Shown here: positions 29,201 through 50,054 of the stretch, piece after piece
How the letters are laid out: each line of letters begins with the position of its first letter
Numbering within the stretch: the stretch's first letter is position 1
Origin: Globisporangium splendens
Taxonomy: Eukaryota > Oomycota > Peronosporomycetes > Pythiales > Pythiaceae
Direction of reading: 5' to 3'
Assembly: GCA_006386115.1 (NCBI GenBank)
Contig: VFIW01000032.1
Location: 454,418-518,417 of the forward strand
DNA length: 64,000 nucleotides
Position numbers and translations under genes: made by a program
The notes under the pieces: generated by a model
Seen by the model: only the letters and a program-made list of their open reading frames with translations
Told to the model about the DNA's origin: nothing
Database searches by the model: none

Positions 29201-31497
29201 CGGAGGTGACGTTGCCACCGAAGACTGCAGCAGATAATTTGTTCTCAACACGGCCAGGTGGCTTTCAAACCAGTCCACTCTCGGGAAAGCCGAAACGAGT
29301 GCAGATTGCTTCCGCAGATGTGAGTGTGTCCAGTCAGTCTAGTGTACCGGACCAGCAAGAAAGCGGACCGAGCGAAAAAGCGAAGCCAGTGGTGTCTCAG
29401 GCGTCTTCTTCGCTTGCATCTAACGTGGAAAAGAGATTAGAACCTTCTGTTGCAGCAAGTCTGCAAGCCAAGCCAGCCAGTGAACCTCCATCAGCAAAGC
29501 AAACTGTGAAGCAGGTGCCGATGCTTCCGACGAACGAGAAACTCGAGGACGCCATCTCGAGTTTGGAAAGCAACTCATGGTCGATCCGCATGGATGCAGT
29601 GGAGTACATTGGGCGAGTGCTTGTGCAAAAGAAGCAGAGTCAGCAACCGAACGATGCAACAAGAGTGGATGACCGGGTTTTGGTTGCGTTCATAAAGCAC
29701 ATGGGAGATGCTCACTATCGCGTGGCTCAAGCTGTGCACAAGAATTTTCTGTCGTTGCTTCAATTGGCCAGTCCCCAGCAGCTCCAGCCGCATCTGAAGG
29801 CGATTCTTCCCAAATTGTTCCAGAAACAGGTCGACACGAAGGAATCCATTCGCGCGATCGCGAAAGAAAACCTCGACTACCTTCTCAAGACCATGGACGC
29901 GTCAGTCCTGACGACGAGTGTCCTCCCGCTACTCATTGATGGAGGCAACATGAAAGTGAAAGCGGCTGTGTGCCATTACCTTCGCGAGCTGCTTCCAGGT
30001 GCAGATGCGTACATGCGACAAAGCAACAACAACAACAACCACATGCGATCGTTTCTCAGTAAGATGGCACAGCTTTTGGAAGGCGAGATGCCGGTTTCGG
30101 TGACGGCTGCGGTCGGAGAGCTCGTTCAAGTGTCTGCAAAGCTCTACGCGGCGGAAATGGAAGCCGCTTTACCGTTGCTGGCTCCGACCAAGCGAACGAG
30201 TCTGACAAAACTGCTCAAGTCCAGAGGCATTGTATTCAGCTTAAATCCTGCTCCGAGTGGGATTGCGTCAATATCTACCGGTGCATTGTCGTCGTCAGGT
30301 TCGTCGCGTGGGAGCAGTCGTGAGCAACAGCAGCAAAACGTTGGCAACCAGGCACCAGAACCTGTGTTCCTCGAGCGCTCCAATCGAAAGCGTTCGGAGT
30401 CGCCGAATGCGAACTCGGCAAGCCCCCAGCGCACGATTCAGAAGCGTAAGAGTGCTAACGACATTGTGAAAGGAGACAACAAAGCCGTAGCCCCGGTACT
30501 CGACTTTAATAAGGCAACCAGTGCTGACCTCTTTTCAAGCGCCAGCAGCAGCATGTTCGACACTCCAGTTTATCCTAGTTCCAGCAGCAGCAGCAATGCA
30601 CCAAAGCAAGCGATCCCATTTGAAGACTTAATCGACGTCGTTGCACAGAACAATGCGACGGAGCGCGAGCGTCGGACAGCTTTCCACAAGGTATGTTGTT
30701 TATGCTCTGATACGCTTTTCTCTGTTGGATGGCTGATTATTAGTTCGTCGTGTGGCTATCTCGTGTTACTGTGTAGATTCTTGGATATGTGAAGTCTGGC
30801 TCGCATGAGTTTTGGGATAAGCACTTCGGGCGTCTGCTGTTCCTCTTGCTGGATGCAGGTGCTGAAAAGGATGTGAGCGCGCTGAAGGTGCTGCAGGGAC
30901 TCGTGGAAATGCATTCGGGCCGCACGCATGGGTATGCGCACCCGATTTTGGTGCGGCTACTGGAATGCCTGGGCGACAAAGCCAACGTGGTGAGTAGTGA
31001 CATAAATGCAAAGTGTCATTGGAAGAGCTTGATTCGTTATATTTGACATTGTATGTTTTGATCCATAGGCAAGCCATCTCGCGGAGAACATCCTGTCTAC
31101 TCTTGTGAGTACAACGAAACAACCAGAGCAGCTTCTGGACATGCTCGCGCCATACCTCTCGAGCGCCGAGCCGCCTTTGCTTCAAGTCGTGCTCCGGTTG
31201 ATCAAGACTGGCCTCGAGGTTTGTGAGAAGAACGTGTCTCCAACGAGAGGGTTCCTTCGCGAAGAGCTCTGGATGGCGAAGCTCCTAGTTCCTGTTGCGC
31301 AGCACCTGACTCATCCCAGCTCCGATGTGCGCAAATGCAGCGTGGATGCGTTGGTCGCGTTCCATTTTGCGATTCTGGAAGACGGTGAGCTCATGTGGGG
31401 GTACCTCTCGAACATTGTGGACGCCACGAAGAAGAAACTGGTGCAGATCTTCATCGAACGTGCAAAGCTCGAACGCCGTCAAACAGCTGCTTCCTGA
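26273..31497 (+). CDS. CLASP-like microtubule-associated TOG protein, twelve exons
   Basis: Large microtubule regulator of about 1,406 residues. Exons: 26273-26312, 26412-26668, 26760-26843, 26935-26973, 27089-27163, 27252-27347, 27442-28220, 28304-28405, 28483-28591, 28693-30690, 30777-30989, 31069-31497; all GT-AG and in frame. An N-terminal TOG/HEAT array (DHNSKVVSSALEILEIVLES, LPVREKAVDVV, DSAKEVRDAAIQTLEKFY) is followed by a second TOG domain (NDWSKRVDGLKKLQELA onward, to AEVRAQSRKCFWAF). Then come a Ser/Pro-rich basic linker, a third TOG-type domain (NSWSIRMDAVEYIG) and a C-terminal HEAT domain with SSDVRKCSVDALVAFHF. This layout is that of CLASP/Stu1, which stabilises microtubule plus ends and spindle microtubules. 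An XMAP215-type protein is less likely. Confidence 0.85.
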
Positions 31498-31923
31498 TGA
31501 CCAAAGTCACACGCTAGAGCGAAATAGGGGGGACGACGAGAGATAGCGAATAGGCGCGAGCCTTCCGTGTGGGCAGCCTTCATGGAGAGAAGGAAGGCGA
31601 AGTTTTGTGCGATTTAGTTGTGATGTGGAGACCTAACTTATTCGAAAGCACCTGAAGTTTATTTGTTGCTTTATCTTGTATCATGCATCCTACTCTCTCA
31701 AACCAAGGTTGACTTAGCGTTTGAATTGTTGTTGTTTGTCAGAACTGACACCTTCGATTGTAACATGTATCCTGCAAATGACTTTCCTTGCTGTCGACTT
31801 CGTTGCTTTTTCATGCAACTAACTTGACAGCAAGAAACATTTTCAACAAACGTGTATTTGTCAACTTAGTGAAATTTCAGTGGTTGACTTTGCACAATCT
31901 TCTGCACAAAAGCTCAAGCAAGC
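31498..31923. other. Intergenic, no gene seen
   Basis: This region holds the 3' UTR of the CLASP-like gene and the promoter of CRIPT, which are in the same orientation. It is AT-rich from 31,610. Confidence 0.5.
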
Positions 31924-32398
31924 ATGGTGTGCGACAAATGCGAGGAGAAGCTCTCGAAGCTCGTGGTGCCCGACAAGTGGACCGACGGCGCGCGCAATAC
32001 GACGGGCGGCAAGGACGGCGGCCGCAAGATCGGCGGCAACCGCCTGCTCAAGAAGCGCGCGGAGCGGTACGTCGCCGCAAATTGTTTCTGCGAGGGACAG
32101 GAAGGAAGGGCATTTTTCAAAAGGAGATGAGTGCATTTGGTGCTATTCGCCGTAGATTCACGCCCATGGAGAGGAAATGCCGCATCTGTAAATGCAAGGC
32201 GGGGCAGCACTGCCACTACTGCAACCAGTGCGCATACAAGAAAGGTATGTGCATGTGTACACGTGTGCATCAACTGCATGGAGTGCAAGACAATGGACTG
32301 ATGGTCGCTGTGCGCTTTTGTATGGGGATGATGCAGGAATTTGCGCCATGTGCGGTCGCAAAGTGCTCGACACGAAGGAGTTCAACATGTCGTCCTAA
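31924..32398 (+). CDS. CRIPT: Cysteine-rich PDZ-binding protein (CRIPT)
   Basis: Very small conserved eukaryotic protein of 97 residues. Exons are 31924-32066, 32156-32244 and 32337-32398, all GT-AG and in frame. It starts MVCDKCEEKLSKLVVPDKW and contains the Cys-pair series CRICKCKAG, CHYCNQCAYKKG and CAMCGRKV, the usual CRIPT zinc-binding layout. Animal CRIPT was named for binding PSD-95 PDZ domains; it is also a component of the minor-spliceosome U12 snRNP, and the protein is far older than neurons. The C-terminus here is NMSS, not the PDZ-type end of the animal protein, so the conserved role is probably not PDZ binding. Confidence 0.95.
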
Positions 32399-32523
32399 AG
32401 ACTATTTATCAGGAAACAAAGCGCAAACTCAAACGCAAATGGAAATGGATGAGTTCGTAGCTGCATTCTCGATATAAAAGTGTGTTCTATTTTGTGCTAG
32501 TGACATTATGCTGTCTCGCCTAC

Positions 32524-34725
32524 TTACTTCTTGCTCGGTTTCATCAGTTTGTACGATTCCAGACGCGACGAGGACAGCCCCGTGGCTTTGTACGCGTTCG
32601 CGGCGTCGCTGTCGCCCTTCTTCTTGCTGCGGCGCTGCTTCTTCTTCAAGTCATTGCTGCTTTTCTCCTTTGTTGCCTTCTTGTCCTCGCTCTCGTTCTC
32701 ACTCTTTGGCTTTTTAGAGACTGGTGCGTCCTCCTCGTCTTCATTCTTCGTCTCAGTCTCCGCCGAAGCAGAAGCCTTGGACTTCTTGATGCGCTTTCGC
32801 TTCTTGCCTGCCGACTTGGCCACACCAGCTTCAGCAGCAGCCTCAATAGGTTCTTCAGCACCCTCGTTGCTGTCCTCGGTCTTCTTCTTGCGCTTCTCCA
32901 TGCGCTCGCGCTTGGCTTCCTCGAGTGATTTCTTGAACTGCTTGACGCGCTTGCGGTCGACCTTGTACTCCTCCTCGAGGTACGGCGCCAGCTTCTTGAG
33001 CGACACCAGCGCCTTCAGCTCCTTGTCGTCCGCGGTCATGATCTCATCGACCGTGAGCCCAAAGTCGTTGGTCTTGACCTGACGGTACTTGAAGCGGCAC
33101 TTGAGATCGCCGATCAGGTCCTCGTAGTCGAGACTGTAGAGCTCGTTCAGGTATTTCTGCGACGCGCGCTTCAGTTCCTGCTTGCTCATGTTCTTGTGGG
33201 TCACTTCAGCGTCCTCGTCTTCCTCGGCATCATCGCCTTCTATCGCTTCGTCATCGTCCTCTTCAGCCTCCTCGTCGTCGTCAGCCTCAATAATGTTGGA
33301 CGCTTGTTCCTGCTCTTCCTCATCATCTTCCTGCTCTTCTTCGTCCTCAGGATCCACTGGCAGACCGGCAAAGAGCTCCTTGTCTTCCTCTTCGTCCCAC
33401 GTCGGCTTCTCCATACCGTCGTCGTCTTCGTTGTAGTACTCTTCATCAAACACCTGCTGCATGCGCTTGTCGTACTCTTCGGGGTCGAATTCGCCTTCGA
33501 GGTCACTGGCCAACAGCTTCGCGTCGTCGCGGCCCATGAGCTTGGCGACCTTCTCCAACTTGCTTTGGATCTCGGCCTGCTTCAGGTTCTTCAGACGGCG
33601 CAGCTCTTCCTCCTTTTTCAGACGCTCGAGCGCCTTGCGCTCCTTGCGCTCGGTACGCTTGCGCTTGCGCGAATCGTCTTCGCGACGCATACTGTCTTCA
33701 ATGTGACGCGCGTGGGTCTGGATCATGCCGCTGCCTTCTTCCTCAAATCGGAAGTTGTAGTTGTGCTCAAACTCTTCGGCTTTCTCTAGTTCTTCCGCGT
33801 CTTCGTCGTCATTCACGATCTCGTCGTAGTGCGGGATCACATCGGACTTGTCCTTCCAGCCTTCACTGCTCAGGTAGTGCTCCAGAAAAGCCTCAGGGTT
33901 CATCTCGTTCTCCTTCAGCTTCGTCCCGTACTTGTTCGTGAACGACGCGTACTCTTCGTCCTCCTGTTTCTTTTCGTCGTCGGTCTTCTTGCGGATCGTA
34001 AAGAGTCCACCATCGAGATCTTCCTCGTCGTCGTCCTTGTCGTTCTCGTCGTCATCAGACGCAGTCGCCTGCTTGAGCGTCGAGAGGAATTCCTGCTTAA
34101 GCTTCGCCTGCTCTTCCCCGTAGGTCATCACGCGGCCGTTGTCGCGCTCATCGTCGCTGCTGTCGACGTCACCCGCGATCACTTGTTGCCGCACGAGGTC
34201 CTTGTAGTACAGCGGCGCCGACTCGCTCTTCTTTTTTTTCTTCTTGTTTTTCTTCTTACTACCGTCCTCACCATCGCTACCGTCGCTGTTATCACCGTCA
34301 TCATCGTCCTTCTTGAAAAACGCAATGGACTTGTCGTAAATCGCCGGGTCTTTCTTGCGGATCAGCTTGAGCGTCTTGCGGATGTCCGCGTCCAGCGCGC
34401 GCGTCAGCTGCTCGCCGTCTTCGTCCTCGGTCTCCGACTCGGAGTCGGATTCGTCGTCGTCGTCGCCATAGAGCTCGCGCTTCTTCTCGAGCCGCTGCAG
34501 CTCCTCCTTGCGCTTCTGCTCCAGGAACGTCTTGGCGAACTTCTCGTTCACCTTGAGCTCCACGGGCTCTTCCTCTTGCTCCTTCTCTTGCTGCTCCGCT
34601 TTCACTGTCTGCTTGCTGCCCTTGGGAGCGAAGAGCTCGTCGGCGGCGTCGTGCTCTTCTTTCGCAACGGGCGCCACGTTGACGCCGCCGCCGCTCTTCT
34701 TGCTGCGCTTCTTCTTGCCCGCCAT
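32524..34725 (-). CDS. KRI1: KRI1-like ribosome biogenesis protein
   Basis: Nucleolar factor for 40S ribosome assembly; yeast Kri1 works with Krr1 in 18S rRNA processing. One exon, 733 residues from Met at 34725; the frame extends to 34776 but the basic start MAGKKKRSKKSGGG suits the family better. The first 540 residues are highly charged, with long Asp/Glu runs and KKKKKK tracts. The Kri1 family signatures appear in order: SSEGWKD in the middle, FDEEYYNEDD, and the C-terminal domain CRFKYRQVKTNDFGLTVDEI with VSLKKLAPY. A Lys-rich tail ends it. The gene converges on CRIPT with 125 bases between stop codons. The long acidic runs make many spurious open frames on the other strand. Confidence 0.93.
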   Translation of the reverse strand: MAGKKKRSKKSGGGVNVAPVAKEEHDAADELFAPKGSKQTVKAEQQEKEQEEEPVELKVNEKFAKTFLEQKRKEELQRLEKKRELYGDDDDESDSESETEDEDGEQLTRALDADIRKTLKLIRKKDPAIYDKSIAFFKKDDDDGDNSDGSDGEDGSKKKNKKKKKKSESAPLYYKDLVRQQVIAGDVDSSDDERDNGRVMTYGEEQAKLKQEFLSTLKQATASDDDENDKDDDEEDLDGGLFTIRKKTDDEKKQEDEEYASFTNKYGTKLKENEMNPEAFLEHYLSSEGWKDKSDVIPHYDEIVNDDEDAEELEKAEEFEHNYNFRFEEEGSGMIQTHARHIEDSMRREDDSRKRKRTERKERKALERLKKEEELRRLKNLKQAEIQSKLEKVAKLMGRDDAKLLASDLEGEFDPEEYDKRMQQVFDEEYYNEDDDGMEKPTWDEEEDKELFAGLPVDPEDEEEQEDDEEEQEQASNIIEADDDEEAEEDDDEAIEGDDAEEDEDAEVTHKNMSKQELKRASQKYLNELYSLDYEDLIGDLKCRFKYRQVKTNDFGLTVDEIMTADDKELKALVSLKKLAPYLEEEYKVDRKRVKQFKKSLEEAKRERMEKRKKKTEDSNEGAEEPIEAAAEAGVAKSAGKKRKRIKKSKASASAETETKNEDEEDAPVSKKPKSENESEDKKATKEKSSNDLKKKQRRSKKKGDSDAANAYKATGLSSSRLESYKLMKPSKK

Positions 34726-37052
34726 TCCTGTCTGAAGAATGAGCCAAATGGCAATTGGAGCTCTTCGCTCAGCCATTGACCTTTTGCTTGTCTCTTTTTT
34801 GCATTGAGGGCGGACAGTATGCGTTCAAGTAAGTACGATATGGCATTTCATCATCTGAAAACGTACTTGAACGAAGTGCAATGGTCGCAGCGTATCAAAT
34901 GGGGGTACTAATCGAAGAGCAGTGGGGTATTATATTATAGTCTACGGTACTGCTTGTCAACAATTTGGGTTGCTGGTTGTTGCGATTGATGGACAGGATG
35001 GAATGGATAGACAAACGAACGAATATCCCGGTTCTTGAGAACACGTTTTCTCTCCTATTGCAGTACGCTGCTGATTGGATGGCAGCAGTGCGTGTTTCGA
35101 CAATCCATACTCGCAGAGTGAAATCAAACGCAGCCTACGGTATCGCCACAGGTGCGTGCGTCAGAAGAACATCAAACAGACAAGCAACATGAACTTAAAA
35201 CGATAGGCAAAAATGTACTATGACAGACAAATGACAAATGCATGCAAGTGACAAATCAACCAGCCATCAACAAATTCTTGCAGATGTGACACATACCTAC
35301 ACTTTTTGGGTTGCTTGCTTGCAGCAATTTCCACAAGCAGCAAACAGCAATTGCAAGCAAGGGAGGTTCGTGCTTCAAGAGAAAGAGCAGCTGGCGTGCT
35401 TGCTCTTGCATGTTCTTTCCTTCCGGTTCGCACTCGAACATTCAACAACAGTAGTACAGTAAGTGGCCAATTGCAAGGATCCCCAGTGGGCAGGATGACT
35501 GGCTGCGCCAAGCGACCCAGTACCGTTTATGACCCATTTCGGGTCTCCCTTCACAACGATCACAGCGATCGCAAGTGGTTAGGGATTTTGCGATTGGCCA
35601 TTTATAACAATCCTCACCACTCGCTTTAACGACTAAAACGGACCTTCGGAGCTTAAAAAGGTGTGAGAAGTGCAGCAAAGCATTGCGTAATCAAAAGGTG
35701 GGTGCAAGGAAGTGTGCGCTGCAGGTCTCTCCTGCAAGCTGAAAAAGACAGAAAGAAACGTTGGTGGCGGCACGTAATTCTTAGCATTCCCATCAAATTC
35801 ACTCTATTTCGGAGACTTTGGAAGTGTGCATGTGTCCATTTGCGCGCAGTGTATGTAGAAAGAATTGCGCGTTTTCGTTCATACCACTTTTGTGTGTGTG
35901 CGTCAACCAATTGTGTGACGGGGCCAACAGTGTCTTTTTCTCTATACGTTCTCGAGTGCCGACCGCGAATTTGAGTGGCCAGGAAGCACTGCCCTCATGC
36001 CGATCTTTTCGTTTGCAGCTTTTCTTTTTTTCTCGAACCGACCGTTTTTTCCGGATGTATTGTGCTGGGTTTGTTTCTCTGCACAAACGATATGGGATAA
36101 AAACACACACCGGTGAACGCTAAAACCTACGAGCGAATAGGGGACCTTGTGTTGCCTTTGCAGCGTTTGCGTAGTGGGCTTCTCTTTGAGTCCACAAAGA
36201 AGCATGGCCTTCAATAATCTCTATATGTGGCATAAACCATTTCTATAATGCGTAAATACTCATTTGAGATCATAAGAATCGTTCACATAAACTCTCAATT
36301 ACTGCATATTACTGTTTATTGTTGCTCGTACCTGCTATGAAGGGTTTTCTCAGCTTTTTTCCCCCCTTGTTTTTATCCTCAGCGGGTCTTTTTTGTGAGT
36401 GTGGGGCATTCTTCCCATACCAACGATCCCAGACGCCCACATTGACACCAAACGCTCAAGCCCCCGCCCGCTCCACACGCAGCCACGTCCACGCGCTTCC
36501 TTCTCTGCATCTCCATCTCTCTGTGAGAAGGACGGACTGCGAGTCTCCCTCCCTCTGTGCACATACGTCCGCAGCCGCCCTCCGCTGCCTTCTCTGCGCT
36601 GTCACAGCAGGTGACGCGTCCGTCTTCTTCCCCCATCCATCCATCCAATTGAACCGAGTGCAATTGGGAGAACCCCCCTTCTCTTCACAGACACGCACTG
36701 GCGAAAGCAGTGCGGCAATAAGAGAAGGAGAGAAGAGCGATCGCGTGGCTCAGCAGCAGCTACGGAAGTGCCGACTGCATTCTCGTGTTCCAAGAGCCCA
36801 GGTCGACGCCGCATTGGTTGCTCAAGTTGCCGATTATTGCCGCTATTGTCGCTGCAGGATTGAAGAGAAGCATCCTGTTTGACTCCTAGCGAGCTGCTAT
36901 ATCACACGTTGCGCTTCCTGTCAGCGTGATCCTCGCGTCCGTGTTCAAAGTAGCGCGACGTGAGTTCCTTACCAAGTCGAGTATTTTGAGCGCGCCGGTG
37001 AGGTTATCCGCATTGTGGCGGAGTGCAAGCAGACTAGGAACCGTACATTATA
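34726..37052. other. Intergenic 2.3 kb with pyrimidine-rich stretch
   Basis: No convincing gene is found. This region must hold the divergent promoters of KRI1 and the cyclin gene. From about 36,350 to 36,680 the plus strand is very C/T-rich (CTTTTTTCCCCCC, CCATCCATCCATCC), which suits a 5' UTR or promoter of the cyclin gene. An open frame at 36,319-36,882 is judged non-coding. Confidence 0.45.
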
Positions 37053-38090
37053 ATGATCGACACGAAGGAGAATGAAGAGCGCGGGCGCATGATCGCGCAT
37101 ACGCTGGCAGCCGTCGTGGACGATATCGTGCGCGAGAGCGGGTACGAGACGATGTCGTACGGGCAGCAGCAGCAGCCGTCCAAGTTCGAAGCGTTCCGCG
37201 CGCCCGGCATCTCGATCCGCGACTACCTCATGCGCATCCACAAGTACGCATCGTGCAGCCCCGAGTGTTTTGTGCTCGCGCTCGTGTACATTGACCGGCT
37301 GCAGCGCATGCAGGGCTTTGTGCTCACGCACCTGAACGTGCACCGCGTGGTGATTACGAGCGTCGTGCTCGCGGCCAAGTTCTTTGACGACCACTACTTC
37401 AACAACGCGTACTACGCCAAGGTCGGCGGCGTGCTGTGCAAGGAGATGAACGAGCTCGAGATCGAATACCTGCTGCTGATCAACTTCAGTCTCCACGTGA
37501 GCACGGACACGTACGCGCGGTTCTACAACGAGCTCGTGGGCCACTACAACCGCACGAGCAGCGGCGGCCGCCACAACCCGTACATGTCGCCGTCGCCGTA
37601 CTACGACGTGGAGCACTTCGTGGCCGAGGACCCGGAGAACGAGGGCCAGCTCATGTACGTGACCAACTACAATCAGCGCGTGCCGCCAGTGATCGACAAC
37701 TCGCGCCACAGCTACCACCACCGGGGGAGCAGCCACCACCACCACTACAGCAACCACAGCCACCATCCGCAGCAGCAGTACGGCTACCAGCAGCAGCAAC
37801 AGCCCTACCAGCAGCAGCATATGTATCAGAGCGAGCCGCAGCCGCAGTATGCGCCGCAGTATCAGCATCACTACCCTCCGCAGCAGCAGCAAGTCTACCA
37901 CCACCAGCAACAGCAGCCACAGCACTACCGTCGCCGTACAATAGAAGAAAATGACAAGTCCTACGCTGCGTCTGGCCACTCCACAAGCGCCAACGCCGCA
38001 TCCACAGCATCAGCAACGACAACAGCGACGGCAACGCGCGCGTCGGGGCAAAAGCGACGGAGTGCTGTCGCGCTCGGCGTCAATGCGTAA
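37053..38090 (+). CDS. PHO80-like cyclin with Gln/His-rich tail
   Basis: Single-exon protein of 345 residues. Residues about 10-170 form a cyclin fold of the PHO80/P-U type, with the phrases FRAPGISIRDYLMRIHKYAS, FVLALVYIDRLQ, NVHRVVITSVVLAAKFFDD and NNAYYAKVGGV. These cyclins pair with Pho85-like CDKs and link phosphate or nutrient status to the cell cycle; the actual CDK here is unknown. From about residue 210 the protein turns into His-, Gln-, Pro- and Tyr-rich sequence (HHRGSSHHHHYSNHSHH then repeated QQQ), ending in Ala/Thr repeats. Such tails are disordered and may vary in length between strains. A Gln run also sits inside the N-terminus (GQQQQPSK). Confidence 0.85.
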   Translation: MIDTKENEERGRMIAHTLAAVVDDIVRESGYETMSYGQQQQPSKFEAFRAPGISIRDYLMRIHKYASCSPECFVLALVYIDRLQRMQGFVLTHLNVHRVVITSVVLAAKFFDDHYFNNAYYAKVGGVLCKEMNELEIEYLLLINFSLHVSTDTYARFYNELVGHYNRTSSGGRHNPYMSPSPYYDVEHFVAEDPENEGQLMYVTNYNQRVPPVIDNSRHSYHHRGSSHHHHYSNHSHHPQQQYGYQQQQQPYQQQHMYQSEPQPQYAPQYQHHYPPQQQQVYHHQQQQPQHYRRRTIEENDKSYAASGHSTSANAASTASATTTATATRASGQKRRSAVALGVNA

Positions 38091-38344
38091 ACTGTTGAGA
38101 GAAGCCTGGCAGGGACCCAAGGATATAAGAAAACAATATTCAGATAGTAGGCAGCATGCGCAATGCGATGGAGCAAACGTGTGGCCTGGAGGCAAGGCGT
38201 TAGGTCAACAAAATCAACATAGTAGTCTTTCAATAGTGGATAGTCTTTTTTTTTTTCTCTTGTTGCTATTGATTTTTGTGGGGAAAAAATACTCAAAAAC
38301 AAAGCCTCAACACCTCATGCGCTTGTTGAATAATTTGCCATTTT

Positions 38345-39267
38345 CTATTTGCGCTGCCAGAAGGTGCCGTCCGAGACACCCCACTGGTACTTGCGCGCGT
38401 GCTCGCGGATCATGAACGGGTAGTCCTGGCGTTTGACGAGCGTGAAGTCCTTGCTCAGATGCTTCTCAATGACGCTAAAGCTGTCGACGGGTTTGCCCGT
38501 GGTTTCGTCCATGCGAGCGCCGATCCACTTGTCCTTGGCCGTGTACTCCTCGAGCCACGAGTACGGACTGATGAGCGCCAGCACGCCGCCCTGGTTCACG
38601 AAGCCGCCCACTTCGGTCAGGAACTTCTCCGGATCTGGCAGCCGACACAGCAGATTGGACGCGAACACGACGTCGAATTTGCCCAGCGACGGCGACAGAT
38701 TGCACGCGTCGCCCTGCTGGAAGCTCACGTTCGCAGGCTTGACGCCCTCAGGCAGCTTGGCTTTGCGGAGCTCGCGGATCTCGCCCTGGATGTGCGCCTC
38801 GTACTCGAGTTCACCCTGCGCCTTCATCTTGTTGGCCGTGTCGGCAAAGTGGTGCGAAAAGTCGATGCCCACGGCCTCGTCAAAGTGCTTGCTGAGCTCA
38901 AATGTGGCGCGACCGACGGCGCAACCGATGTCGAGTGCGCGGCGGCGGTGCGTCGCTGGCACGTGCTTGACGCACTCCTCCACCGTCAGCGGCAGAAACG
39001 CGAGCGCATCCTTCGGCGCAAAGCTGTACGGTACGACTTCAGACGGATCACCTGCATAAAGAAGCAAATGATGGCGCCACGTGGCATTTAGCACACACTT
39101 TTACGTAGCTCTTGGGAACGCAGATTGATTCGTCCATTGTAGAGAAACGTACCAAAGTGGAACTGCAGGTACTCGTGCACGGCGCGCTCGGACTCGTAGA
39201 CGACGGAGCCGCTGGCCGTGGTGCTGCGGACGACGGCGGCTTGCATGGCTTTCGTGGACGCGCGCAT
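38345..39267 (-). CDS. SAM methyltransferase, OvoA C-terminal type
   Basis: Class I SAM-dependent methyltransferase of 273 residues in two exons, 39267-39153 and 39051-38345, joined CACTTTG to GTGAT by a 101-nt GT-AG intron. The SAM-binding motif I is LDIGCAVGRATFEL, followed by the acidic GIDFS, then FQQGDACNL and FASNLLCRLPDPEKFL. These phrases resemble the methyltransferase domain of the ovothiol enzyme OvoA and the stand-alone family named putative 4-mercaptohistidine N1-methyltransferase. The likely reaction is methylation of the imidazole nitrogen of mercaptohistidine to give ovothiol, an antioxidant thiol. No OvoA sulfoxide synthase domain is in the window. Met at 39246 is an alternative start. 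Confidence 0.75.
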
Positions 39268-39640
39268 TCTACGAGGAGAGCGAATTGATCAATGCTGCTC
39301 CATGAGGATTGGCCATTTCAGATTGGGTAATCGTCGGATCCTGTTGCAACCCCCCCCACCCCCCCCCTCCACCGCCCCCCCCCGCTTCTGGCAACATGTT
39401 TTTCTTGTTTCTTGTCACTTGAAAAGACTAATAATATTACTTGATGTTGCGGTATCAAACGCTAGTAAAGAAAAGACACAACAAAGAGATTTTCTGCACA
39501 AACGTAAACAATTGACGCACTTTTCTCGCGCCCCTCGGACCGGGGAGAGAAAGGGGGGGGGGAAAAAAAGGGGGGGGGAGGGAGGGGGTGGACCAAGGGG
39601 GGGAAGGGGGGCAGAGGGGCGGGGACCGATGGTTCCAGTC
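39268..39640. other. Eukaryote-bacterium join with low-complexity C and G runs
   Basis: The segment opens as ordinary eukaryotic 5' flank, then has a C-rich block at about 39,350-39,385 (C runs broken by single A, T and G). AT-rich sequence resembling the eukaryote follows to about 39,540. Next come G and A homopolymers at about 39,550-39,612 (G10, A7, G9, G5, G7, G6) and bacterial rnhB from about 39,641. The homopolymer mixture looks like the miscalled tail of a sequencing read. The block is best treated as an assembly artefact. Confidence 0.85.
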
Positions 39641-39945
39641 CCCTGCACCGCGCGCTGCATCGCCAGCATGGTGGCGCGCAGGATGTTCAGGCTGTCGATT
39701 TCCGCGACCGTGGCGCTGGCGATGCACCAGGCAAGCGCCTGTTCCTTGATCTGCAGCGCCAATTCCTCGCGGCGCACGGCGGTGAGGACCTTGGAGTCGG
39801 CCAGGCCGTCAATGAAGCGTGATGGGTCCAGAATGACCGCCGCCGCGTAGACTTCGCCAGCTAGCGGGCCGCGGCCCGCCTCGTCGACGCCGGCGGTCAG
39901 CAGCGCGGGCTGCTCCGGCGCCACGAAAAGCTCAGGCTGCTCCAT
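39641..39945 (-). CDS. rnhB: Ribonuclease HII, 3' part missing at the join
   Basis: N-terminal half of RNase HII, which removes RNA from RNA-DNA hybrids and single ribonucleotides from DNA. Translation from 39945 gives the family motif [15 protein letters not shown] with its catalytic Asp-Glu, [15 protein letters not shown] and the helix [16 protein letters not shown]. After about 101 residues the sequence becomes Pro/Gly junk from the G-rich join; the family normally has about 200 residues, so the second catalytic half is absent. The gene overlaps the end of lpxB by 14 bases, the normal arrangement at the end of the lpx operon. Truncation is by assembly, not evolution, as far as can be judged. 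Confidence 0.92.
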
Positions 39946-41128
39946 CGGCCACCTCCAGGATCGCCTGCGCGGCCAGCGCCGGCGTATCGCGTAACAGGTC
40001 TTGGTGCATGGCGGTAAAACGGGCCTCCACGCGGGCAATCAGGGCGTCGTCGGTCAACGCCTGCCAGGTCGCTTCGGCCAGTTTATCGGGCGTCGCGTCA
40101 TCCTGCAAAAGCTCGGGAACGACGAAGTCGCGAAGCAGCACGTTGGGCAGGCCCACCCAGGGCAGGTACGGGCGCTGCTGACCAGACTTCCACGCCATGA
40201 TCCGCCGCATCCAGGGCGACAGGACGTATGAGATGACCATGGGCCGTTTGAACAGCGCCGTCTCCAGCGTGGCGGTGCCGCTTGCGACCAGGACGGCCGT
40301 GGCGGCTTCCATGACGGACCAGGCCACCGGCGCCTTGCGGTCCCCGCCCTCGCCGTGCAGATCGTGCGCGGTGACGCAGCGCAGACCGGGCACGGGGTAC
40401 TGGGCCAGGATTTCCAGGAACTCGGCCCGCCGCTGGTCATTGACCATGGGCACGATGCACTGCAGAGCCGGATCCTTCTTCAGCAGTTGCTGGGCCGCCT
40501 GCAGAAAGCGCGGCGCGAGCAGACGGATCTCCGAGGACCGGCTGCCGGGCAGGATCGCCAGCACACGGGCGTCTTGATCGATGCCCAGGCGCGCGCGGGC
40601 CGCCGCGCGGTCCGGCTGCATCGGCACGGCGCCGGCCAGCGGATGGCCCACGTACGTCACCGGTATGCGTTCCTTGCGGTAGATCTCTTCCTCGAACGGA
40701 AACAGCACCAGCATGTGCGAGACCGATTCGCGGATCTTGTGAATGCGCTCGTAGCGCCAGGCCCAGATCGAGGGGCCGACGAAATGCACCGTCGGCGTGC
40801 CCGCCTGGCGCAGCTGGTGCTCCAGCCGCAGATTGAAGTCGGGTGCGTCGATGCCCACGAAGACGGACGGCGGCTCGGCGAGCCAGCGGCGCTTGACGTC
40901 GCGGTAGGTGGCCAGCAGGCTCGGCAGGCGCTTGAGCGCGTCCACGTAGCCAAACACGGTCAGCGCGTGCATCGGATGCCAGGCGTCGAAGTCTCGCGCC
41001 TGCATCTGCGGTCCGCCGATGCCCTCGCAGCGCACGCCGCTGTCGCGCGCTTGCAGACCGGCAATGATGCGTCCGGCCAGCAGGTCGCCCGAAGGCTCGC
41101 CGGCCACCATGCCGATCCGAGTGCTCAT
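39932..41128 (-). CDS. lpxB: Lipid A disaccharide synthase
   Basis: Glycosyltransferase of 398 residues that joins UDP-2,3-diacylglucosamine and lipid X to make the lipid A disaccharide at the inner membrane. Family features: [20 protein letters not shown] at the N-terminus, [33 protein letters not shown] and LPGSRSSEI, ending with the ASGTATLE donor-site motif. Its start overlaps the stop of lpxA by 4 bases and its end overlaps rnhB, so translation is probably coupled across lpxA-lpxB-rnhB. Confidence 0.97.
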
Positions 41129-41919
41129 GGGCGGATGATGCCGCGGGAGGCGACGTCCAGGAAGTCCAGCAGCATCTGCAGATGTTCCGCGGCTTCAGGG
41201 GTGGATTGCTGGCGCTCGCGCAGTTCGGCGCGCGCCGCGTCCAGGGGCAGGCCCCGGCGGTAGATGATCTTGTAGGCTTCGCGAAGAGCCGAAATCGAGG
41301 CCGCGGAAAAACCGCGGCGTTTCAGGCCTTCGACGTTGATGCCCACCGGACGGCACGGGTTGCCGGCCGCCAGCACAAAAGGCGGGGTGTCCTGCATGAG
41401 GGAGCTGTTGCCGCCCGTCATGGTGTGCGCACCCACGCGCGAGAACTGGTGCACCCCGGTCAGGCCGCCGATGATCGCCCAGTCGCCCACGTGCACGTGG
41501 CCGCCAAGCTGCACTGAATTGGCCAGGATCGTGTTGCTGCCGATGTGGCAGTCATGGGCCACGTGAACGTAGGCCATGATCCAGTTGTCGTTGCCCAGCG
41601 TTGTTTCACCGCCATCCTGCGTCGTGCCGGTATTCAGCGTGACGAATTCGCGCACCGTGTTGCGGTCGCCGATCGTCAGGCGCGTGGGCTCGCCCGCGTA
41701 CTTCTTGTCCTGCGGCATGCCGCCAATGGAGCAATAACGATAGAAGCGGTTGTCGCGACCGATGGTGGTCACACCGTCGATCATGCAGTACGGGCCGATT
41801 TCGGTGCCCGCACCGATGGTCACATCAGGCCCCACCACTGCGAACGGGCCGATGACCACGGTCGGGTCGATTTTTGCCGCCGGATCGACAACAGCGGTGG
41901 GATGGATGTTTCCTGCCAT
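41125..41919 (-). CDS. lpxA: UDP-GlcNAc O-acyltransferase
   Basis: First enzyme of lipid A synthesis; moves a 3-hydroxyacyl chain from acyl carrier protein to UDP-GlcNAc in the cytosol. At 264 residues it has the family length. A left-handed beta-helix is shown by hexapeptide repeats (IHPTAVVDPAAKIDPTVVIG and onward). The catalytic-His segment MAYVHVAHDCHIGSNTI is present, and the C-terminal helical part follows from about residue 195. It sits one base after fabZ, giving a fabZ-lpxA-lpxB run with almost no gaps. Confidence 0.97.
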   Translation of the reverse strand: MAGNIHPTAVVDPAAKIDPTVVIGPFAVVGPDVTIGAGTEIGPYCMIDGVTTIGRDNRFYRYCSIGGMPQDKKYAGEPTRLTIGDRNTVREFVTLNTGTTQDGGETTLGNDNWIMAYVHVAHDCHIGSNTILANSVQLGGHVHVGDWAIIGGLTGVHQFSRVGAHTMTGGNSSLMQDTPPFVLAAGNPCRPVGINVEGLKRRGFSAASISALREAYKIIYRRGLPLDAARAELRERQQSTPEAAEHLQMLLDFLDVASRGIIRP

Positions 41920-42375
41920 TTACTCTTCCAGGCTGCGAATCGCGCACATCAGCTTGGCGGAAGCCACTTCCTGGCCGTCGACCGTCGCGCGTGCTTGATA
42001 CTTACAGATGCTGCGGCTCAGGCGTTCCGCTTCGACCTCGATGCGCAGCTGGTCACCCGGGACGACGGGGCGGCGAAAGCGCGCGCCGTCGATGCCGACC
42101 AGGTAATAGGCGGTCTTGGCGCCTTCACACTTGAGGCCGCCGTTCTCGTCCGTGAACGAGAACAGCGCCGAGGCCTGGGCCATGGCTTCGACGATGAGCA
42201 CGCCCGGCATCACCGGATGGTGAGGAAAGTGACCGTTGAAAAACGGCTCGTTGATCGAGACGTTCTTGATGGCGACGATGGACTTGCCAGGCACCATTTC
42301 CACGACACGGTCAATCAGCAGCATCGGGTAGCGATGCGGCAGCCTCTCCATGATCCCCTTGATGTCGAGTTCCAT
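41920..42375 (-). CDS. fabZ: 3-hydroxyacyl-ACP dehydratase
   Basis: Hot-dog fold dehydratase of fatty-acid elongation, 151 residues. The signature [20 protein letters not shown] is complete, with the active-site His and Glu; [13 protein letters not shown] marks the N-terminus. Its place between lpxD and lpxA is conserved in proteobacteria, where it balances the shared 3-hydroxyacyl-ACP pool between phospholipid and lipid A. Confidence 0.97.
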
Positions 42376-42442
42376 TTTTCTATGCGTTCCTGCGAAATTA
42401 AATAATGTGGCGGCGCGGGCGCGCCAGGGCGGCGAACGCGCC

Positions 42443-43539
42443 CTAGTCCTTTTCCAGCGTGCGCACGCGGCGGCGCAATTGCGCCAACTGTTGTATCACG
42501 GCGGCGTTGCGCTGCCATTCGCCATGCTCCGCGTACGGGAAGACCCCGGTGTAGCGGCCAGGCTTGGAAATATTGGACGTCACTGCCGTGCCGCCCGAGA
42601 TATGCACGTCGTCACCCAGCACCAGATGCCCCGAGAGCATCGCGGCGCCGCCGATGGTGCAGCGCTCGCCGATGGTGGTCGAGCCCGCCACACCCACGCA
42701 GGCCGCCATCGCGGTATGTGCGCCGATGCGGCAGTTGTGGCCGATCATGATCTGGTTGTCGAGCTTCACGCCGTCCGCGAGGACGGTGTCTTCAAGGGCG
42801 CCGCGGTCGACGGTGGTGTTGGCGCCGATTTCGACGTCATCGCCCAGCGAAACGCCGCCGAACTGCGGGATCTTGCCCCAGGCGCCCTTGCCCAGCGAAG
42901 GATCCGGCGCGAAGCCGAAACCATCGGCCCCCAGCACCGAACCGCTGTGCAGGATGACTCGGGCGCCGATCTTGACGCCTTCGTACAGCGTGACGTTGGC
43001 ATGCAGCCGGCCATCGGGCCCGATGGACGATCCGGCGCCGATGACGCAACCCGGACCCAGCACCGTGCCCCGTCCGATACGCACGCCGGCTTCGACGACG
43101 CAGTTCGGGCCGATACGCACGCCTTCTTCGATGATCGCGTCGGGCGCAACCACGGCGGAGGGATGGGTTTCAGCGGGCAAGGCGGGTCTGCGGCAGTGTC
43201 CGACCCACTGCGCGACGCGCGGTAGAGCAGTATAGGATTCTTGCAGATACATCGCAAATGGCGCGGTCGCTGGGGCCGCCCTGGCTTCGAGCGCCCTGCG
43301 ACGTCGTGGAGACGATGACGCGCCCCCGCTCCGGTTGCGCCAAGCTGGCTTTGGTAACGGGGATTGGACAGGAAAGTGATTTCCTGGGGGCCGGCCGAAG
43401 ACAGGGTCCCGATGCCGCAGACCCGCATGGGGTCTGCGCCGGGAACCGCACTGATACGCCAGTCCATACCCTGGGTATTGGCGGCGCTCAACAATGCTTC
43501 AAGTGTCGGCGCGCGGGCAAGATCCAGTAAAACCGGCAT
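42443..43539 (-). pseudogene. lpxD: UDP-3-O-acylglucosamine N-acyltransferase, frameshifted
   Basis: Third enzyme of lipid A synthesis, adding the N-linked acyl chain. The N-terminal domain is read from 43539 ([35 protein letters not shown]). At about 43,320 the frame breaks. A short stretch, [10 protein letters not shown], continues in a second frame, and from about 43,255 the hexapeptide-repeat domain runs in a third frame to 42443 ([20 protein letters not shown] onward, [11 protein letters not shown] with the active-site His). At least two small indels within about 120 bases are needed. The operon around it is intact and the gene is essential in most Gram-negatives, so sequencing errors are more likely than a true pseudogene. 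Confidence 0.9.
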
Positions 43540-43557
43540 GACTAGACGGGTATCGCT

Positions 43558-44118
43558 TTACTTGCCCAGGCTCTGGATCACCTTGTCGGTGATGTCGATG
43601 CGCGGGTTGACCGTCACCGCGTCCTGGATGATCAGGTCGTAGTTTTCCTGTTCGGCAATGCGCTTGATGGCGTCATTGGCCTTGGACACGATGCCCGAGA
43701 ATTCTTCGTTGCGGCGGCGGTTGAAGTCTTCCTGGAACTCGCGGCGCTTGCGCTGCAGGTCGGTGTCCAGGTTGGCCAGTTCGCGCTGGCGCTTGACGCG
43801 GTCGGATTCCGACAGGACGGGGGCGTCCTTGTCGAACTTCTCGGCTTGCGAGCGCAGGCTGTTGTTCAGGCGCTGGAGTTCGTCGTCGCGCTTCTTGAAT
43901 TCGGCTTCGATCTTGCTTTGGGCAGTCTTGGCCGGACCCGATTCGCGCAGGATGCGTTCGGTATTGACGAAACCGATCTTGGTGCCTTGCGCTTGCGCGG
44001 GGATCGCGGCAGCCGAACCGAGAATGAGCGCACCCACCAGGGCAATGGAGCCGCCCAGCTTGCCACGGCGCTTGGCGCCCAGCGTCTTCGATGATTTAAG
44101 TGCGAAATCAGACATCAT
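43558..44118 (-). CDS. skp: Periplasmic chaperone Skp/OmpH
   Basis: Periplasmic holdase of 186 residues that carries unfolded outer-membrane proteins to the BAM complex. A signal peptide (basic KRRGKLGG, hydrophobic core, then IPAQAQ) is followed by the mature start GTKIGFVNTERIL. The middle is a long charged coiled coil (EFKKRDDELQRLNNSLRSQ), matching the Skp tentacles. It has an unusually long cytosolic lead before the hydrophobic core; Met2 is an alternative start. It lies between bamA and lpxD, the usual order. Confidence 0.95.
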   Translation of the reverse strand: MMSDFALKSSKTLGAKRRGKLGGSIALVGALILGSAAAIPAQAQGTKIGFVNTERILRESGPAKTAQSKIEAEFKKRDDELQRLNNSLRSQAEKFDKDAPVLSESDRVKRQRELANLDTDLQRKRREFQEDFNRRRNEEFSGIVSKANDAIKRIAEQENYDLIIQDAVTVNPRIDITDKVIQSLGK

Positions 44119-44227
44119 GAAAATCTCACCTTCCAGTAAGGCAAAGCCAAAGTGTGTATTGTGCCACTAAACAGCAAGGACGCTGGACCAGGGGGCCGCG
44201 CCCTTGTTTTCAAGAGTAACGCCTCGC

Positions 44228-46561
44228 TTAGAATCCCGTTCCGATCTGGAACTGGAAGCTTTGCTTGTCGTCGCCCGGCTTGGAATTAAGCGGTCGCGCA
44301 TACGACAGCTGCAGCGGGCCCATCGGCGATTGCCAAGACAGGCCGATACCGGCCGAGAAACGCCAGCCGCACGGATCCTCGACCTCGGTGTTGTCGCGGC
44401 CACGGGTGCAGGACAGGCCGCTGCCCGCCGACACCTGACCGGCGTCGCTGAAGATGAACCAGCGCAGGGTGCGATCCTTCGAGGCGCCCGGGAATGGCAG
44501 GTACAGCTGGGCGTTGGCCACGATGCGGCGCGTGCCGCCCAGGTAATCGCCCGTCTTGACGTCGCGCGGACCCAGCGACGAGCCTTCGTAGCCGCGGACG
44601 GTGCCGATACCGCCGGCATAGACGTTCTTGATGACCGGGTAATCCTTGCTGCCGTAGCTCTGGCCCCAATCGACCATGCCGTTCAGCGCCAGGGTGTACG
44701 AGCCGCCCAGCGGCACGTAATACTGCTGTTGCGCCGTCAGCATCGTGTATTGCAGATCGATGGTCGACACGTCGGCCTTCAGGCGCGTGTACGAACCCTT
44801 GGTCGGCGCCAGCGCGCTGTCACGCGTGTCCTTGGACCAGCCGGCGCTCAGGATCACCGAGTTCGTCGCATCGCCATACTGGTCAACGAAACTTTCGTAG
44901 GCCGCCGGCGAGTTGTTGTACAGGTCGATCTGGTTGCGTTCGAAGTTGCCGCCCAGGAAGATGCGGTCGTACTCCGAGATCGGGATACCGAAGTTCATGC
45001 CCAGGCCCAAGGCCTTGACGCGGTAGTCACCGTCGTTGTTGTTCCAGGGCTCGGTCACGCGGTAGTACGCCGACGTGGTGCGGCTGATGCCGTCCTTGGT
45101 CCAGTACGGATCGGTATGCGACAGCACCACGGCGCGGTTCGTCTTGCTGGTGTTCAGTTGCAGCGTCAGGTTGGTGCCGCTGCCGAAGACGTTGTCTTCG
45201 CTGATACCGGCCGACAGAATGGCCTTTTCGGACGAGCCGTAGCCCACGCCCAGGTTGATCATGCCGGTGGGCTTTTCCTTCACGTCGACGTTGACGTCGA
45301 CCTGGTCAGGGGAGCCCGGGACCGGCTCGGTCTTGACGTTGACGTCGCTGAAGTAACCCAGACGGTCGACGCGATCGCGCGAGGTCTTGATGTCGCCGGC
45401 GTCGTACCAGGCAGCTTCCTGCTGGCGCATTTCGCGGCGCACGACTTCGTCGCGGGTACGGGTGTTGCCGCCGATCTGGATGCGGCGCACGTAGACGCGG
45501 CGGCTCGGGTCGACGTAGAACGTCAGGTCGGCTTCGTGCTTGGCGCGGTCCAGTTGCGGGTTCGGGTTGACGTTGGCGAACGCGTAGCCCAGCTCACCCA
45601 GGTAGTCGGTGATCGCCTTGGCGGAATCATTAGTCTTGGCGGCCGAGAAGGTCTCGCCTGCCTTGATCTGCACCAGGTCGTTGATTTCCTTGTCCAGGCC
45701 CAGCAGGTTGCCGGCCAGCTTGACGCTGCGCACCTTGTAGGGCTCGCCTTCGTGGACGGTGATCGTGATGCGGATGTCCTGGCGATCCGGCGAAATGGTG
45801 ACCTGCGGCGGCTCGACCGAGAACTCCAGGTAACCCTTGTCCAGGTAGAACGAGCGCAGGCGTTCGAGGTCGCCCTCGAGCTTTTCGCGCGAGTATTTAT
45901 CGGTATCGGTGTACCAGGTCAGCCAGCCGGGGGTGGTCAGCTTGAATTCGTCCAGCAGGTCGCTTTCGGAAAAGGCCTTGTTGCCGACGAAACGGATTTC
46001 CTGGATGCGCGCAACCGAGCCTTCGAACACGTCGAAGCTGACGCCGACGCGGTTACGCGGCAGCGGCGTGACGGTGGAAGTGACTTCGACGCCGTATTTG
46101 CCCTTGGACAGATACTGCTGCTTCAATTCGTATTCGGCGCGCTCGAGCATGGAGCGGTCGAAAATGCGGCCTTCCGCAAAACCGACCTGCGCCAGCGAGG
46201 TGGTGATGGCCTTGGAATCGAATTCGCGCATGCCGTTGAAGTTAACGGACGCGATGGTGGGACGTTCTTGAACGACCACGACGACGACATTATTGTCCGT
46301 CTGGATCTGAACGTCGGTGAAAAAGCCCGTGCCATACAAACGGCGGATGGCTTCGGTGGCTTCTTCTTCGGTGAATTTCTCGCCGACCTTGACAGGCAGA
46401 TAACCAAAGACGGTGCCGGCGTCGGTTCGTTGAATACCCTCCACGCGGATATCCCGCACGACAAAGGGTTCGAAGGCGTGGGCCAAGGCCGGCAACATCA
46501 GCGCGGCTACGAGACCCGGCAGTACACCCTTTTTGTGTTGAAACATCCGGCGAAAAGACAT
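44228..46561 (-). CDS. bamA: Outer membrane protein assembly factor BamA
   Basis: Central barrel protein of the BAM complex, which folds and inserts outer-membrane beta-barrels. The start at 46561 (MSFRRMFQHKKG) gives 777 residues with a signal peptide ending ALAHA. Five POTRA domains follow (VRDIRVEGIQRTDAGTVFGY opens the first). The C-terminal barrel has conserved VRGYEGSSLGPRD, whose VRGY/F motif on loop 6 is required for function, and ends with GTGF, an aromatic terminus as expected. The open frame extends to 46585 but lacks a fitting start. Sequence and context resemble Bordetella/Achromobacter Omp85. Confidence 0.97.
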   Translation of the reverse strand: MSFRRMFQHKKGVLPGLVAALMLPALAHAFEPFVVRDIRVEGIQRTDAGTVFGYLPVKVGEKFTEEEATEAIRRLYGTGFFTDVQIQTDNNVVVVVVQERPTIASVNFNGMREFDSKAITTSLAQVGFAEGRIFDRSMLERAEYELKQQYLSKGKYGVEVTSTVTPLPRNRVGVSFDVFEGSVARIQEIRFVGNKAFSESDLLDEFKLTTPGWLTWYTDTDKYSREKLEGDLERLRSFYLDKGYLEFSVEPPQVTISPDRQDIRITITVHEGEPYKVRSVKLAGNLLGLDKEINDLVQIKAGETFSAAKTNDSAKAITDYLGELGYAFANVNPNPQLDRAKHEADLTFYVDPSRRVYVRRIQIGGNTRTRDEVVRREMRQQEAAWYDAGDIKTSRDRVDRLGYFSDVNVKTEPVPGSPDQVDVNVDVKEKPTGMINLGVGYGSSEKAILSAGISEDNVFGSGTNLTLQLNTSKTNRAVVLSHTDPYWTKDGISRTTSAYYRVTEPWNNNDGDYRVKALGLGMNFGIPISEYDRIFLGGNFERNQIDLYNNSPAAYESFVDQYGDATNSVILSAGWSKDTRDSALAPTKGSYTRLKADVSTIDLQYTMLTAQQQYYVPLGGSYTLALNGMVDWGQSYGSKDYPVIKNVYAGGIGTVRGYEGSSLGPRDVKTGDYLGGTRRIVANAQLYLPFPGASKDRTLRWFIFSDAGQVSAGSGLSCTRGRDNTEVEDPCGWRFSAGIGLSWQSPMGPLQLSYARPLNSKPGDDKQSFQFQIGTGF

Positions 46562-46614
46562 CCTTGAGTATCCTCGGTCGTGCAAATGGCGGGGGATTTT
46601 ATGCTAAATGGCGT

Positions 46615-47946
46615 TCAAGTGAACAAACGCGTGAAATCGTTGAACAGCGCAAGCCCCATCAGGCTTGCCAATATGCCTATGCCGGCGCGTTGTCCGATGT
46701 CGATCCATCTTGCGGGCGGGGGGCTACCCCGCACAATTTCGACGAGATAGTACAGCAGATGGCCACCATCCAGCATAGGAATGGGGAGCAAATTTAAAAC
46801 GCCCAGGCTGATACTGATCAATGCGATATAGGCGATATACGCAACAATTCCGATCCGGGCGGTCTGGCCGGCGTAGTCCGCAATGGTGACCGGACCGCTT
46901 ACATTGCGCCACGACACGTCGCCCGTCACCATGCGGCCCATCATGCGCAGCGAAAACCAGGCGGTGTCCCAGGTGCGGACGGCGCCGCGCCAGAGGCTGT
47001 CGAAGACGCCATAGCGCACGGTCACCATCGGCACGTTGCCGCCCAGTTGCACGCCCAATCGGCCGATTTCCTGGCCGTTGACGACTTCAGGGCGAGGCGT
47101 GACATTCAGGGTGACGTTGGCACCATCCCGGACCACGGTCAGGGCGAGCGGCTTGCCGGCGCTTTCCTGGATCTGCTTGACGAGCGCGCCGGTGTCGGGC
47201 GCCGGCTGGCCATTGACGGCCACGACCAGGTCACCCGCGCGCAGGCCGGCGGCCTGCCCTTCTCCGCCGTCGATCACCGCGCGCACGGCGGGCTTGGGCT
47301 GGGCCAGACGCACGCCGGCCGCGGCAAGCGGGTCGCCCTCGGCCGGGTCCATCGTGTTGGGGGGAAGATCGAGTTCGCGCCGCTGGACGGCGCCGGACGG
47401 CGTGCTGACCTCGATGCTGGCGCGCCCGCCGGTGGACATGACGTCCATCAGACGCCAGCGGGCGTCGGACCACGAGGCGACCTCCTGGCCATCGATGGCC
47501 AGGATGCGGTCGCCGGCCAACAGGCCAGCCCGCGCTGCGGGGGTCTCGGCCGCGGGCGGCGCGATGATGGCGACGGGCTCCTCGGTGCCGGCCATGTTCA
47601 GGCACGCATACAGGAACACCGCGAGGATCAGATTGAAGATGGGGCCAGCGGCCACGATGGCGATGCGCTGGCCCACAGGCTTGGTGTTGAAGGCGGAAGC
47701 CGCCACGGCCGGCGAGGCCCCAGGCGGCGCATCGTCCAGCATCTTGACGTAGCCGCCCAGCGGCAGCGCGGATACCGCCCATTCGGTGCCGTGCCGGTCG
47801 GTGCGGCGCAGGATGACCTTGCCAAAGCCCACCGAGAAACGCAGGACCTTCACACCGCAAAGGCGGGCAACCCAATAGTGCCCGAGCTCATGGAAAATGA
47901 TCAGTGAGCCGAGCGCTACCGCAAAGGCCAGCAAGGTGAAAAGCAT
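46615..47946 (-). CDS. rseP: Site-2 metalloprotease RseP
   Basis: Inner-membrane zinc protease of 443 residues. It cleaves the anti-sigma factor RseA within the membrane to release sigma-E when outer-membrane assembly fails, and trims leftover signal peptides. The zinc site HELGHYWVARLCGVKV is in the first transmembrane helix and the second metal-site motif MLDGGHLLYYLVE is near the C-terminus. Two PDZ domains lie between (around VAIIAPPAAETPAARAGLLA and GGEGQAAGLRAGDLVV). It lies upstream of bamA in the same run, fitting its job in envelope stress. Confidence 0.97.
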   Translation of the reverse strand: MLFTLLAFAVALGSLIIFHELGHYWVARLCGVKVLRFSVGFGKVILRRTDRHGTEWAVSALPLGGYVKMLDDAPPGASPAVAASAFNTKPVGQRIAIVAAGPIFNLILAVFLYACLNMAGTEEPVAIIAPPAAETPAARAGLLAGDRILAIDGQEVASWSDARWRLMDVMSTGGRASIEVSTPSGAVQRRELDLPPNTMDPAEGDPLAAAGVRLAQPKPAVRAVIDGGEGQAAGLRAGDLVVAVNGQPAPDTGALVKQIQESAGKPLALTVVRDGANVTLNVTPRPEVVNGQEIGRLGVQLGGNVPMVTVRYGVFDSLWRGAVRTWDTAWFSLRMMGRMVTGDVSWRNVSGPVTIADYAGQTARIGIVAYIAYIALISISLGVLNLLPIPMLDGGHLLYYLVEIVRGSPPPARWIDIGQRAGIGILASLMGLALFNDFTRLFT

Positions 47947-48000
47947 GGGGTCGGAATCTAGGAAATCAGAGGCAAACGCAGAGGCAATCGCGGCCCGCCA

Positions 48001-49200: not shown

Positions 49201-50054
49201 AACAAGACTCCAGACAAAAGTAGCGCGAACGGCGCGACGGGAAGAATCGCATCGATCCGGTCATAGACGCCGCCATGGCCAGGCAAGAGTGTGCTGGAAT
49301 CCTTGCGGCCCGCGCGGCGCTTGAGCAGCGACTCGAACAGGTCTCCCACAATGGACAGCACGCCCAGCACCGCGGCGATCGGCAGGGCGAGCCAGAAAGC
49401 CCAGCGTTCCACCAGGGCGTGACCGAAGGTGCCGTCCCACAGGCTGGACAGCCCGATCCACACCACCGCGCCCAGGACGCCAGCGATGGCGCCTTCGATG
49501 GTCTTGCCCGGACTCACTCGCGGAGCCAGTTTACGCTTGCCGAAGGCCCGGCCGGCAAAGTAAGCGGCAATATCGGCCACCCAGACGAGGGCCAGCAGCG
49601 ACACGACGAACACGGCGCCGCGCGCCACGTACATCTGCGCCAGCACCGCCCAGGCGGCAAACGCGGCCGGGACGGAGAAGACCGACCACGCCAGACTGGC
49701 CGGCGGCGCGTCGGCGCGCCCGCGCACCACGGCGGCCACGCCGGCAAACAGCCAGACGGCGGACACGGCCGGCACCAGGTAGCGCAGCACCCAGCCGGGA
49801 TCGCCCGCGCCGGTCCGGTCACCCGCCAGCCACGCGGACGTCAGCACCAGCATGCCAGCGAACAGCAGGACGGCGACACCGATGGAGATGAGGGGGGAAG
49901 GCGGTTGCGGCAGCGTCAGGCGCAACCACTCCCAGTTGGCGCACGCGGCCGCAAGGGCCAGCAGCGCGACGAACCACCAGGGATTGGCGCTCGCCATGGC
50001 GGCGGCCAGAATGGCCAACAAAACGACGGCGGTAACGATACGCTGGCCCAGCAT
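49197..50054 (-). CDS. cdsA: Phosphatidate cytidylyltransferase
   Basis: Makes CDP-diacylglycerol from phosphatidic acid and CTP, the branch point of phospholipid synthesis, in the inner membrane. 285 residues with about eight hydrophobic helices. The family signature lies at the C-terminal end: [18 protein letters not shown], then [20 protein letters not shown] and [14 protein letters not shown], with the Lys and Asp pairs that bind metal and CTP. It is stop-to-start coupled to dxr downstream. Confidence 0.96.

Follow-up and report, generated by a model that had tools for sequence, protein, structure and literature searches.

The abrupt change from eukaryotic to bacterial DNA within the window, the whole stretch of 64,000 bases analysed here (C124:454418-518417, from an assembly of 53.3 Mb in 195 contigs), is almost certainly a false join of an oomycete contig to DNA of a contaminating Achromobacter mucicolens, arising in library preparation or assembly. 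An earlier note, made from the letters alone, had proposed that a eukaryotic contig was here falsely joined to an Alcaligenaceae genome fragment, and this proposal is upheld: both partners can be named, two other contigs (C182 and C40) carry the oomycete locus on past the join without bacterial DNA, and C119 carries a second bacterial tail. The window ends with the last base of C124 (C124:518417), and the DNA ahead of the join comprises the following features.

1..39270, no strand: oomycete nuclear DNA, recognised by Pfam matches, homologues of the methyltransferase and composition; its genes include those for a TCP-1/cpn60 chaperonin and for HisA-like, HEAT-repeat, CLASP-like, Kri1-like, cyclin and SAM methyltransferase proteins.
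38345..39240, minus strand: SAM methyltransferase gene, the final gene ahead of the join (Pfam, homologues, tblastn).

Pfam matches were obtained in 8 of the 10 open reading frames scanned left of the join, and the closest named relatives of the SAM methyltransferase are oomycete proteins (Globisporangium at 83%, Phytophthora at 75%, and also Peronospora). The DNA left of the join is that of an oomycete close to Globisporangium. Introns had been described for many genes on this side; the methyltransferase, the sole gene tested for them, gave two exon matches in tblastn separated by a single 80-base gap at 39071-39150, and the description stands to that extent. In 3-kb bins, GC content spans 0.488-0.575 for the 13 whose starts lie at 1-36001 and 0.625-0.704 for the 9 whose starts lie at 39001-63001, the final bin (start 63001) containing 1000 bases only. 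Tetranucleotide profiles divide at the same place, such that 13/13 of the left-hand bins are closer to the body of the oomycete contig and 9/9 of the right-hand bins are closer to A. mucicolens. Composition thus changes at the join in all bins under the GC and k-mer comparison that the earlier note had proposed, and, with the BLASTN start points given below, bears out the sharp switch from eukaryote to bacterium.

The limits of the join can be drawn from both sides. When the window was compared by BLASTN with 26 of the 80 relatives retrieved (25 Achromobacter and 1 Bordetella), the bacterial match began at 39641 in 21 of them, at 39647 in a further 3 and at 39635 in the remaining 2. From the oomycete side, BLASTN homology to the flank copies in C182 and C40 ends at 39522. 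The features around the join are as follows.

34500..39522, no strand: flank common to C124, C182 and C40 (BLASTN, per-bin comparison); its copies lie at C182:184370-187855, minus strand, and C40:56820-60316, plus strand (BLASTN).
39271..39522, no strand: degraded oomycete sequence (alignment with C40 and C182).
39523..39640, no strand: G/A-rich filler, the join proper (sequence and alignment; no counterpart in C40, C182 or A. mucicolens).
39641..64000, no strand: A. mucicolens chromosome fragment of 24,360 bases, reaching the contig end (alignment to a type-strain contig).
39641..39946, minus strand: rnhB, truncated by the join to its first 101 codons (frames of the window and a relative; named by sequence and position).

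The filler consists of 118 bases, mainly G and A, and is assigned as the join proper because oomycete homology to the other copies stops at 39522. In the 252 bases of degraded sequence there are 73 alignment columns, C-rich insertions included, at which the window stands apart from a sequence shared by C40 and C182; a C-rich stretch at ~39350-39383 of the window is missing from both. These 73 differences and the filler resemble the product of a read tail losing quality or of a consensus lacking support. The switch had been placed at 39350..39645 in G and A homopolymers, which fits the filler, but the window departs from the other copies already at 39271. The claim that rnhB is cut after about 101 codons agrees with the frames of the window and of a relative.

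A fundamental question is how does the oomycete locus continue without the bacterium? Both C182 and C40 run on past 39522 with neither G-rich filler nor bacterial DNA in the ~4.5 kb read in each, and a protein-kinase gene lies beyond the flank in both (profile match in C40); the C40 kinase presumably resembles casein kinase I, as judged by eye. Between C182 and C40, identity stands at 99.6% over the locus compared first and at 95.7% in the 3.2 kb that follow. Between 34500 and 39270 the window shows 1 difference from C182 and 27 from C40. A further match to C182 lies farther left in the window.

16754..24000, no strand: overlap with C182:199831-207077, minus strand, at 100% as rounded (1 of 3 candidates scored).

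The final base of C182 (C182:207077) corresponds to window position 16754, and the bit score of the match up to 24000 is slightly under that of a perfect match. C182 would overlap C124 by ~22.8 kb, of which 24000-34500 rests on the matches either side; the coordinates of those matches imply a net length difference of 24 bases between C182 and C124. Because identity is 100% (rounded) over 16754-24000 and there is one difference in 34500-39270, C182 is probably the true continuation of C124, left unmerged with it. The alignments suggest that C40 represents another allele or a second copy; within 34500-39270 its 27 differing columns are confined to 37300-38100, against both C124 and C182. A stretch ~75% identical to the cyclin gene of the window (37092-37324) was also observed ~3 kb farther along, at L096:1501-1724 in C40 and L095:1501-1725 in C182, and probably represents an additional cyclin copy in the true locus.

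It is conceivable that C182 and C40 are alleles lacking the insertion. A recent heterozygous or copy-specific transfer, by which 24 kb or more of Achromobacter DNA entered one copy, leaving C182 and C40 as the empty copies, would account for the presence of more than one copy of the locus and for bacterial genes that are nearly intact, as expected if it were very recent. This reading is nevertheless highly improbable. Over the stretches compared, C182 is closer to C124 than C40 is and so would seem to be the same copy rather than the other allele; C124 runs out within bacterial DNA, with no right-hand oomycete flank; the flank consensus is degraded exactly at the join; C119 closes with another piece of this bacterium; and the changes relative to the type strain are those of purifying selection in a bacterium. 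Host DNA on both sides of the bacterial block, the mark of a transfer, was not found, since C124 ends inside bacterial DNA. A real insertion is very unlikely because the near-identical C182 would have to be a separate empty copy, the consensus to have degraded by chance precisely at the join, the right flank to be missing, and C119 to hold a further, unrelated insertion. In the form that this would have to take, with 24 kb or more of A. mucicolens DNA inserted very recently into one copy of the locus and C119 as a second such case, we give it next to no credence. The judgement in the earlier note that a true transfer was very unlikely is supported by the continuations in C182 and C40, the degraded consensus and the C119 tail.

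The false join requires a bacterial source, and this can be named from the block itself. The 24,360 bases of 39641-64000 align to a type-strain contig of A. mucicolens as a single alignment at 97.8%, the outcome of the search against bacterial genomes that had been put forward as a check, and BamA is 100% identical to that of A. mucicolens LMG 26685 (top of the best 80 loci kept). The bacterial partner is A. mucicolens or a strain very near it. The 5.4 kb that lie just past the join of the window in A. mucicolens had no match anywhere in the assembly. A mitochondrial or plastid origin of the block was rejected, as its matches are to Achromobacter. Besides the truncated rnhB, the block contains the following genes.

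39932..42375, minus strand: lpxB, lpxA and fabZ, intact (NCBIfam, Pfam; no gaps against the type strain).
42443..43539, minus strand: lpxD, broken frame (two overlapping frames; error-dense patch at ~43150-43350).
43558..54327, minus strand: ompH-like, bamA, rseP, dxr, cdsA, uppS, frr, pyrH (profile match only as amino-acid kinase), tsf and rpsB, intact (NCBIfam, Pfam, comparison with the type strain).
56065..58671, plus strand: glnD, intact (NCBIfam; type-strain comparison).
58671..59486, plus strand: marC-family membrane protein gene, its frame interrupted near 59016 (type-strain alignment, frames).
60596..62116, minus strand: purF, intact (NCBIfam; type-strain comparison).
62635..63468, minus strand: SPOR-domain protein gene (Pfam PF05036).

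All 10 of the proteins compared with NCBIfam (lpxB to purF) were matched, 9 above the curated cut-off and cdsA below it, and Pfam matches were found in 9 of 10 further open reading frames of the block. The 15 intact genes all align gap-free to the type strain, with 295 synonymous and 17 nonsynonymous changes (pN/pS 0.019). Given this ratio and the lack of gaps, these genes therefore evolved in a bacterium under purifying selection. The absence of gaps or decay claimed by the earlier note holds for these 15 genes but not for lpxD (~43150-43350) and marC (near 59016), whose frames are broken. Compared with 28 Achromobacter rows, lpxD has 34 columns unique to the window at 43150-43350 and 0 in the rest of 42400-43600, and 12 of the 21 gap openings of the whole bacterial block in the type-strain alignment fall at 43194-43320. 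This distribution points to a local consensus error in lpxD rather than gradual decay, and both broken frames would appear to lie in local consensus errors or to be indistinguishable from them.

The same data bear on an ancient horizontal transfer fixed in the lineage, in favor of which there is nothing beyond physical linkage within the contig. The block is 97.8% identical along its length to a living bacterial species, its composition is bacterial in 9/9 bins, 15/15 intact genes are gap-free, and two copies of the locus lack it; identity and empty copies contradict such a transfer, the probability of which is vanishingly small. Signs of residence in a host (introns, shifted composition, relaxed selection) were not found in the block, as its bins are bacterial and its genes gap-free.

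Contaminant DNA is also found at a second, unrelated contig end.

C119:1227465-1241525: A. mucicolens tail at the end of C119, 14,061 bases, equal to L097 from 1326, and L100.

Over this tail, 10,450 of 10,846 compared bases match one A. mucicolens place at 97-98%, on a contig that differs from the one matching the window and is thus another locus. A truncated retroelement frame with integrase and RNase H matches (two of the C119 retroelement matches being just below the Pfam cut-off) ends at L097:1298, and A. mucicolens DNA begins at L097:1326. No G-rich filler was seen at the C119 join, unlike the C124 join, and this dissimilarity of the two joins was counted against the false join. Within the tail, a segment at L100:2123-2447 was observed of which ~300 bases are missing at the corresponding place of the type strain and which occurs at 9 other places there at 88-93%; it is a predicted dispersed repeat of Achromobacter.

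Further bacterial traces are few. C94 has five bacterial transporter family matches at 273-2128, 6026-6850 and 14886-16090 (family matches only), and its start is probably a further contaminant stretch, or C94 is wholly bacterial. A single match to BPD_transp_1, a bacterial ABC permease family, was also noted at C100:637652-638203. LysR, TctC, BPD_transp_1 and BPD_transp_2 are numerous families in Achromobacter. Profile counts over the whole assembly are 1, 2, 3 and 2, respectively, the one LysR occurrence being at C119:1227640, 14 kb before the contig end. Given so few matches, the idea of an entire bacterial genome hidden in the assembly is unsupported. These counts also bear on whether the bacterium was a true associate of the oomycete, as an endosymbiont or hyphal partner, that was sequenced with it and then mis-joined, which agrees with the preferred explanation on the join and differs only on the origin of the bacterium. 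At least two contig ends (C124 and C119) carry the same species, as an associate might leave. Against this, the block is near a cultured type strain and shows no gene decay outside the two local frame breaks, and the assembly has few bacterial marker matches and no bacterial genome, although filtering before deposition could explain the latter. We consider a true associate unlikely.

The false join to a contaminant shows the features by which a chimera is recognised: the block is near-identical to a living bacterium throughout, the host flank continues elsewhere in the assembly, the consensus at the join is poor, and the contaminant lies at unrelated places (C119 by DNA, C94 by family matches). 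In the preferred explanation, the DNA that was sequenced contained A. mucicolens, or a strain very near it, and C124 entered a stretch with weak or single-read support, over which the consensus collapsed (39271-39522). The G/A-rich filler would have been called after this degraded consensus, and a bacterial read or contig of 24.4 kb would then have been attached to C124, while the oomycete locus itself probably goes on in C182, overlapping C124 but unmerged. The step producing the join would have been a chimeric molecule, a read-end error or scaffolding.

The feature is an ordinary assembly chimera involving a contaminant. Conterminator has been used to survey public assemblies of eukaryotes for contamination across kingdoms (Steinegger and Salzberg 2020, PMC7218494). 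As in the cases taken from that survey, sequence of one kingdom stands in the record of another and is near-identical to a living source; unlike in those cases, the contaminant does not form a contig of its own but is attached to one of the host, and the same assembly also yields the probable true continuation of the host DNA. In the assembly of the tardigrade Hypsibius dujardini (Delmont and Eren 2016, PMC4824900), bacterial scaffolds from organisms sequenced along with the animal could likewise be mistaken for gene transfer; the raw assembly there contained near-complete bacterial genomes, whereas here there are pieces on few contigs. A literature search for Pythium with Achromobacter contamination showed no matching report among the papers listed. 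If true, the join would be a remarkable bulk transfer, and the evidence speaks against this. Uncorrected annotation would assign lipid A, Bam-complex and bacterial translation genes to an oomycete, and the misassigned proteins could enter protein databases under an oomycete label. The practical gain is a cut point for C124 near 39270, with C182 as its probable continuation, and two further contigs that need cleaning, C119 from 1227465 and C94 at its start.

A search for 16S sequences gave 4 of its 5 scored matches on C48 (among 807 first-look candidates, so that bacterial 16S elsewhere is possible). This contig of 98,337 bases has a GC content of 25.5% and contains cob- and nad9-like frames recognised by eye. 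Its four 16S copies are arranged as two inverted pairs ~59.35 kb apart, and C48 is probably the mitochondrial genome assembled more than once around.
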